Part shown: one piece after another, positions 21,166-21,775 of the stretch | How the letters are laid out: every line of letters begins with the position of its first letter | Position numbering within the stretch: position 1 is the stretch's first letter | Assembly (NCBI GenBank): GCA_015478665.1 | Contig: JADMII010000008.1 | Location: 1-64,000 of the forward strand | DNA length: 64,000 bases | Reading direction: 5' to 3' | Source: Dehalococcoidia bacterium | GTDB taxonomy: Bacteria; Chloroflexota; Dehalococcoidia; DSTF01; JACRBR01 | The notes under the pieces: generated by a model | Seen by the model: only the letters and a program-made list of their open reading frames with translations | Database searches by the model: none | What the model was told of the DNA's origin: nothing | Made by a program: the position numbers and the translations under genes

Positions 21166-21199
21166 GCAGAAGGCCGCCGATTGCTCGGCGGCCTTCTGC
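21166..21199. terminator. Bidirectional terminator between cyclophilin and zinc-ribbon genes
   Basis: A perfect 15-bp stem (21166-21180 with 21185-21199) with loop TTGC. It serves the plus-strand cyclophilin gene and the convergent minus-strand riboswitch-controlled gene. Confidence 0.85.
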
Positions 21200-21232
21200 C
21201 GTTGGAGGAGGAGGCTGTTCCTGGAAAGCGTC

Positions 21233-21547
21233 TTAGTTGCGGCCGGCCCTCCGCTTCGCGACGTACTCGTCGCAACTGCCCGCCGCGTGGCTGATCCGCG
21301 CCACCTCGAAGTCCGTCGCACACCTGTTGCAGAGGCGGATGCCGTCGTACTCCACGGAGCCGATGCGCCCCCGCGACTCGCCGCAGCCCTGGCAGGCAAT
21401 CTGCAGCGCCGCATCCATGCCGCGCTCCTGATCCTCTTCGGCCAGGAGCTTCATCGCCTCGGTGATCGCTTCGAATTGTCCCTTCGTGACCCCCTTGTAG
21501 ACGTGCCTCCGGCTGTAGTCGATCGCCAAGTCGACCTCCGCGAACAT
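21233..21547 (-). CDS. Zinc-ribbon protein controlled by a c-di-AMP riboswitch
   Basis: Predicted 104 residues. The N-terminal half (~1-48) is mostly helical and charged; the second half has ACQGCGES and LCNRCATDF, two CxxC pairs 17 residues apart that form a zinc-ribbon. It looks cytoplasmic. The frame is open up to a GTG at 21601, but that lies inside the riboswitch expression platform, before an intrinsic terminator, so the ATG at 21547 is chosen. I know no function for it. Control by c-di-AMP suggests a role in envelope, osmotic or potassium homeostasis, as for other ydaO-regulated genes; this is inference. Confidence 0.7.
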   Translation of the reverse strand: MFAEVDLAIDYSRRHVYKGVTKGQFEAITEAMKLLAEEDQERGMDAALQIACQGCGESRGRIGSVEYDGIRLCNRCATDFEVARISHAAGSCDEYVAKRRAGRN

Positions 21548-21561
21548 CGGTACCAGCGAGA

Positions 21562-21594
21562 TCAAAATCGGCCGAAGGCGCACACCTTCGACCG
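21562..21594 (-). terminator. Intrinsic terminator of the riboswitch expression platform
   Basis: In the minus-strand RNA, GGUCGAAGG (21593-21585) pairs with CCUUCGGCC (21578-21570) around a 6-base loop and is followed by GAUUUUGAUC. It lies 15 bases before the ATG and directly after the aptamer, as expected for a transcription-terminating switch. Confidence 0.75.
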
Positions 21595-21611
21595 GTCTCA
21601 CCCTCCTCGTT

Positions 21612-21730
21612 ATGCCTGCGGGGTTAGCTGTCGGGTTCGGCTCGAAGGAGTTCGCCTACGCACAGGTCGTGCGATTCACCCCGGGTCCGTTCGGTTCCCC
21701 CGCCTCGCCCTGACGGACGAGCTCGGCTCT
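21612..21730 (-). promoter_or_regulatory. ydaO/yuaA-type c-di-AMP riboswitch aptamer
   Basis: Reading minus, the conserved blocks of the ydaO aptamer appear in order: GGGGGAACC, GGGGTGAATC, GTAGGC, CCGAACCCGACAGCTAACC and CGCAGGC. These match the family consensus, including the near-invariant CCCGACAGCTAAC block. Variable hairpins sit between them, e.g. CTCGTCC with GGGCGAG and GCAC..GTGC. Family knowledge: binding of c-di-AMP usually turns expression off by favouring a terminator, and such a terminator follows at 21562-21594. The enzyme making c-di-AMP (CdaA) is encoded at 52953-53819. Confidence 0.88.
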
Positions 21731-21746
21731 ATTCAGTTGTGTCTTC

Positions 21747-21775
21747 AGGCTACGCCGTCGCGCCCAGGAAGTCAA
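21747..21775 (-). promoter_or_regulatory. Promoter of the riboswitch-controlled transcript
   Basis: Reading minus, TTGACT at 21775-21770, a 17-bp spacer, TAGCCT at 21752-21747. The expected start near 21740 leaves the whole aptamer in the transcript and gives the zinc-ribbon gene its own unit, separate from the GH36 gene ending at 21827. Confidence 0.7.

Follow-up and report, generated by a model that had tools for sequence, protein, structure and literature searches.

A c-di-AMP riboswitch unit in Dehalococcoidia with a small CxxC/CxxC protein and a conserved C-rich RNA as possible outputs

In the window, that is, the whole stretch of 64,000 nucleotides analyzed here, a c-di-AMP riboswitch with its own promoter and terminator precedes the gene of a small CxxC/CxxC protein, and this gene is followed by a C-rich RNA element whose motif is unchanged across the eight family genomes, three of which have lost the protein gene. 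The unit fits best among the c-di-AMP riboswitches, its output being of a new type. It is proposed to be a c-di-AMP OFF switch with two outputs, the protein and an RNA complementary to Shine-Dalgarno (anti-SD) sequences, the RNA being the only output in some genomes; this reading is given about an even chance. Retention of the riboswitch after loss of the protein gene, together with the invariance of the C-rich RNA, points to a regulatory RNA as an output. If this is true, numerous mRNAs of these bacteria would be under translational regulation by c-di-AMP, which would tie this messenger to post-transcriptional control and add a rare case of a riboswitch acting through an sRNA outside the B12 class. 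It would also place a conserved protein family of no named function within the c-di-AMP physiology of Chloroflexota.

The original prediction, made from the sequence of the locus, had named a ydaO-type aptamer, and this identity is borne out: the RF00379 match spans the entire model (1-134) and scores 90.1 bits, the gathering score being 38. That the region is a true c-di-AMP (ydaO) riboswitch is strongly supported by the match (Table 1), and the RNA may be presumed to bind this ligand. The predicted promoter is also present, with TTGACT at 21775-21770, a spacer of 17 nt, TAGCCT at 21752-21747 and the aptamer 8 nt further on, and a sigma70-like site is found at the equivalent position relative to the aptamer in 12/12 related units. 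Directly downstream of the aptamer, the terminator hairpin (CGGUCGAAGG/CCUUCGGCCG, -18.0 kcal/mol) is followed by the U-tract AUUUUGAU; the intrinsic terminator was thus correctly recognized, with a stem slightly longer than the 9 bp first given. Terminator hairpins resembling it and followed by U5 occur in G001, G002, G003 and G006 (family genomes are numbered G000, the genome of the window, to G007). They are also readable in the sequence of the other three, G004, G005 and G007; the automatic terminator search gave over-extended hairpins in G004 and G007, and shorter ones were read from the sequence.

Table 1. Features of the riboswitch unit, listed in the direction of transcription
Feature	Position in the window	Strand	Basis
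Sigma70-like promoter TTGACT-17-TAGCCT	21747..21775	-	Sequence and equivalents in related units
c-di-AMP (ydaO/yuaA) riboswitch aptamer, RF00379	21598..21738	-	90.1 bits, E 8.5e-20
Aptamer segment UCCUUCGAGCCGA, possible antiterminator strand	21637..21649	-	Duplex with terminator 5' arm
Intrinsic terminator as expression platform	21561..21594	-	Hairpin 21594-21569, then AUUUUGAU
CDS, small CxxC/CxxC protein, probably 98 aa with TTG start	21233..21529	-	Orthologue starts, 15-member alignment
C-rich anti-Shine-Dalgarno-like motif CCUCCUCCUCCAACGG	21199..21214	-	Invariant in 8/8 family genomes
15-bp terminal hairpin, terminator-like, weak U-tract	21166..21199	-	Covariation, fold z-score

The unit would form an independent transcription unit under an OFF riboswitch. 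At high c-di-AMP, the aptamer would be folded and the terminator free to form, so that transcription would stop after about 180 nt; at low c-di-AMP, the aptamer part CCUUCGAGCC would base-pair with the terminator's 5' arm, letting RNA polymerase read through. The predicted duplex reaches -15.3 kcal/mol, and 2.2% of shuffled aptamers yield an equally strong one. This site ranks best, with sequence changes among the genomes, in the five genomes that have the protein gene (G000, G001, G002, G003 and G006), the pairing being only modestly above chance in G001, G003 and G006. It was not found in G004, G005 and G007, and one common antiterminator for every unit was rejected on this account. The antiterminator pairing fits an OFF switch by termination such as the rpfA leader of Streptomyces, which responds to c-di-AMP through premature termination (PMC10117811). 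A full-length aptamer, a terminator directly downstream and a promoter of its own are features that the unit shares with RF00379 systems of this kind.

The reading frame with its cysteine pairs was correctly predicted, and the length of 104 residues should probably be revised. The stop codon of the CxxC...CxxC frame lies at 21233-21235, and a start at TTG 21529 (98 aa) is favored over ATG 21547 (104 aa) because the orthologues in two genomes of the same genus (L005, L006) begin at the aligned place with GTG behind the same ribosome-binding site, GGAGG, found in the window at 21539-21535, five bases ahead of the TTG. Between genera, identity of the proteins has fallen to 40-50%, and the 15-member alignment keeps 11 invariant residues, the four cysteines among them. 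The AlphaFold2 model (pLDDT 89, pTM 0.78) is composed of one helix, a four-strand zinc-ribbon-like part and two helices; the four cysteines are what suggests zinc binding. The protein was described as uncharacterised and not a usual target, and this description stands, as no Pfam or NCBIfam model scores above its cut-off. Fold searches of PDB and BFVD with the model gave no solved or viral match at E<=0.001. ClpX-type, DksA/TraR-type and other named domains were considered and set aside, there being no significant Pfam, NCBIfam, PDB sequence or fold match. The CxxC...CxxC arrangement is common to the window protein, FtrD-like proteins (PF10080) and generic zinc ribbons, and PF10080 gives the best Pfam score, 25.7 bits, under its curated cut-off of 26.3; only 4/15 members match it, and membership was rejected on this score; a further difference is the missing PDB fold match at the same E threshold. 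A protein of no assigned family falls outside the usual c-di-AMP target classes of ion and osmolyte transport or wall turnover. The RF00379 membership of the RNA is unaffected by this, since the aptamer is not defined by the class of its target. As first proposed, the protein may be a new effector of c-di-AMP signaling.

Homologues of the protein were found by BLAST in 10 genomes among 99 relatives, and a profile search of contigs with a 4-member protein alignment matched two Chloroflexota MAGs of the same genus (REEB247, WY5.bin150). One BLAST match (L013 in G023) was weak and lay in a long, poorly matching frame; it was dropped as probably due to chance. In 5/5 family genomes having the gene, RF00379 immediately precedes it on the same strand, as it does one gene copy each in G041, G038 and G071, which belong to other families of the class. 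In the main, the expectation that homologues carry the same upstream RNA was thus confirmed, with eight protein homologues behind a riboswitch on the same strand. No RF00379 match was found at the other paralogues, seven loci in the class (L009, L012, L014-L018), nor for a related protein subfamily from a different class within the phylum. Judged from these loci, the link between riboswitch and gene is conserved across considerable distance, though not universal in the protein family. The family (f1) is a clade in the protein tree (98/97), and the deeper forks allow one or several origins of the link. In a subfamily without the riboswitch from another part of the phylum (L022-L027), most copies have the conserved C-terminus RDKLMPSNEPC.

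At the locus in G004, G005 and G007 there is no protein gene and the C-rich RNA follows the riboswitch directly; no homologue of the protein was found elsewhere in these three genomes by BLAST or profile search. Only 55-72 nt separate the motif from the end of the aptamer; the terminator hairpin with its U-tract takes up this space, in which no shared open reading frame with a ribosome-binding site was found. These loci are otherwise intact: promoter, terminator and motif are in place, and the aptamer scores 92-104.5 bits. They thus have the features of a riboswitch-controlled ncRNA, namely a riboswitch with a terminator, an RNA free of reading frames and an end of its own, and the riboswitch would govern only an ncRNA of about 250-270 nt; the window unit differs in having the protein gene between riboswitch and C-rich RNA. 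The protein had been presented as the sole target of the riboswitch, which these three genomes do not support. Nor does it appear to be an essential output, given its absence there and the paralogues and subfamily that lack RF00379.

The genes around the unit help to separate what belongs to the riboswitch from what belongs to its neighbors. In the window, a cyclophilin gene (PF00160, 20226-21044) is convergent with the unit, and the units of G041, G038 and G071 likewise face a gene that reads as cyclophilin on its reverse strand. In G005 and G007, a convergent D-Ala-D-Ala carboxypeptidase-type gene replaces the cyclophilin, and the gene upstream is GH36-like as in the window. This carboxypeptidase-type gene belongs to one genus (L148 3346-4320, PF00768; L149 3560-4537), with the riboswitch unit in place. 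Since the 3' neighbor is swapped and the upstream gene is the same, the element moves with the riboswitch and not with the protein or the 3' neighbor, and it is mainly for this reason that the RNA is treated as an output in its own right. At the level of the order, in a genome of another family (G011), a protein-less riboswitch (L085, G011:C54:32872-33006) is followed by CCCTCCTCCTC, located in a possible hairpin loop, and by a terminator-like hairpin; the fold of this locus is not significant (z -1.6), so the case is only suggestive.

The C-rich element itself, CAGCCUCCUCCUCCAACGG and the 15-bp hairpin at 21217-21166, lies downstream of the protein gene and before the cyclophilin, and was overlooked in the original prediction. 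The final terminator named there is real; it is located at 21166-21199, outside the interval 21233-21775 assigned to the unit, and is part of the conserved element that begins at about 21217. In 8/8 family genomes the element is found 3' of the same riboswitch and on the same strand. Mean pairwise identity of CCUCCUCCUCCAACGG among them is 1.0, compared with 0.2-0.34 in 10-nt bins outside the element. Such invariance is the expectation if the partner of the motif is itself invariant, as Shine-Dalgarno sequences are. All cells of the hairpin (100%) are paired, with two-sided changes at 5 pairs, and the 83-nt region has a fold z-score of -6.0. In predicted folds the motif is partly paired (mean unpaired probability 0.36-0.74). 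CCTCCTCCTCC occurs once in the window, where 0.07 occurrences are expected.

When a covariance model of the element was searched against 294 genomes of the class, the eight family copies were the best matches (75.7-86.3 bits), and the matches beyond them were led by terminator hairpins without the motif, the next-best of which scored 43.5 bits. The exact pattern has a single site in 7/8 family genomes; G000 differs by one base and has its single site in the window. An interpretation as a repeat or a general terminator was rejected on these single sites and on the generic nature of the hairpins found beyond the eight copies, and one as the 3' part of the cyclophilin gene was rejected because G005 and G007 have another convergent gene. 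The riboswitch-gene units of G041, G038 and G071 were found to be without the element, which is confined to one family of genomes. The 11-mer full complement, GTTGGAGGAGG, is found in G000 only as the opposite strand of the element, with no extended target apparent, and at few scattered sites in other genomes.

Under the proposed OFF switch, the read-through RNA would provide first the small zinc-ribbon-type protein and second a 3' RNA in which an un- or weakly structured CCUCCUCCUCCAACGG precedes the terminator hairpin. In the cell, the C-rich stretch of this RNA would most likely reduce the translation of some mRNAs by pairing with their Shine-Dalgarno sequences. A more direct version, in which the riboswitch serves a trans-acting anti-Shine-Dalgarno sRNA as such and the zinc-ribbon protein is an optional second output, is put forward tentatively, with the balance tilted somewhat against it. 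It is rather unlikely, though to be taken seriously, that the C-rich stretch acts in cis only and that the protein is the product that matters, the stretch being part of a bidirectional or Rho-assisted terminator, a stabilizer of the mRNA 3' end, or a feedback element on the GGAGG of the zinc-ribbon gene or on the purine-rich 3' tail GAGGAGG of the aptamer. The A-tract/stem/U-tract symmetry of the hairpin in several genomes and its site between convergent genes would suit such a role, as would the GAGGAG of the aptamer tail in the five genomes with the protein gene, which could pair with CUCCUC. However, not one letter of the motif changes where protein and ribosome-binding site are absent or where the convergent gene differs, the aptamer tail varies among genomes and the motif is constant, so that the two do not covary, and the ordinary terminator hairpins of the class are without the motif.

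It is improbable that the riboswitch serves the zinc-ribbon protein only, as a new c-di-AMP target, with the C-rich stretch as a leftover and the protein-less loci in decay. The riboswitch-gene pair does occur in several families, and in G041, G038 and G071 it is syntenic with cyclophilin and stands without the element, but the protein-less loci have all their parts intact, unlike decaying ones, and identity is lost in the neutral flanks and kept in the motif. An action as DNA or through the other strand, for example with GGAGGAGGAGG as a ribosome-binding site, is very improbable: the reverse complement does form a perfect string of Shine-Dalgarno type, but there is no shared start codon at a suitable distance, the exact pattern found no second copy in the genomes, and the orientation relative to the riboswitch is fixed in all eight.

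The riboswitches known for c-di-AMP act in cis on genes of ion and osmolyte handling and of wall turnover. Their known targets include transporters of K+ and amino acids, wall hydrolases and osmotic functions (PMC7266159), whereas the present unit has a small CxxC/CxxC protein outside the named families, a C-rich ncRNA, or both. No c-di-AMP riboswitch controlling an sRNA was found in the open-access literature, subscription journals being mostly outside this scope. Precedents for riboswitch control of an ncRNA come from B12 riboswitches: AspocR and Rli55 of Listeria are ncRNAs that are terminated when the ligand is present, AspocR being antisense to pocR and Rli55 sequestering EutV through its ANTAR motif (PMC8079631). 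Termination of an ncRNA by a riboswitch is common to these and to the present proposal, which differs in having an anti-SD-type motif and no antisense target. The motif has its closest likeness in the alpha-r14/NfeR1/SmelA075 sRNAs of Rhizobiales, which have three (or four) hairpins, each with an unpaired motif (PMC10746234, PMC3927594). In NfeR1, the anti-SD motif CCUCCUCCC silences ntrB by an 8-nt interaction at the translation start (PMC10746234). These sRNAs have variable stems, a final hairpin and the ultraconserved anti-SD motif CCUCCUCC; the present element also ends in a hairpin, and a motif of the CCUCCUCC type is invariant across the relatives. In contrast to them, it has one linear motif and one hairpin, lies downstream of a riboswitch and is found in Chloroflexota. 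Membership in alpha-r14/NfeR1, with its three hairpins, was rejected on this ground, and the two may work alike.

The genome of the window (2.67 Mb) contains three RF00379 riboswitches, and the targets of the other two are, as read from their sequences, of the expected osmolyte or envelope sort. The first (G000:C10:89651-89784; L001, L146) precedes a long frame apparently encoding a trehalose-6-phosphate synthase/phosphatase fusion, and the second (G000:C49:17843-17985; L003, L145) a glycosyltransferase group 2-type membrane protein. In another genome (L092, G009:C123:6893-7034), CCCTCCTCCCC follows the riboswitch terminator and precedes the start codon of a frame that reads as trehalose-6-phosphate synthase; as a C-rich stretch within the 5' leader, it could influence the ribosome-binding site in cis. 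A second, different small protein of about 68 aa with two CxxC pairs (LPRTCPRCRGSMI-ERDWYG-Y-TCL-CGYVHEAVSTPP...) is found directly behind RF00379 in many genomes of the order (L051, L052, L054, L055, L084, L086, L088, L090, L094, L097), with no obvious terminator between riboswitch and gene and no Pfam model above cut-off. At three further loci (L089, L093 and L100, in G015, G016 and G013), the riboswitch precedes a receiver-like protein (GLLITADRALARAFRRELGRC...), which is an unusual target.
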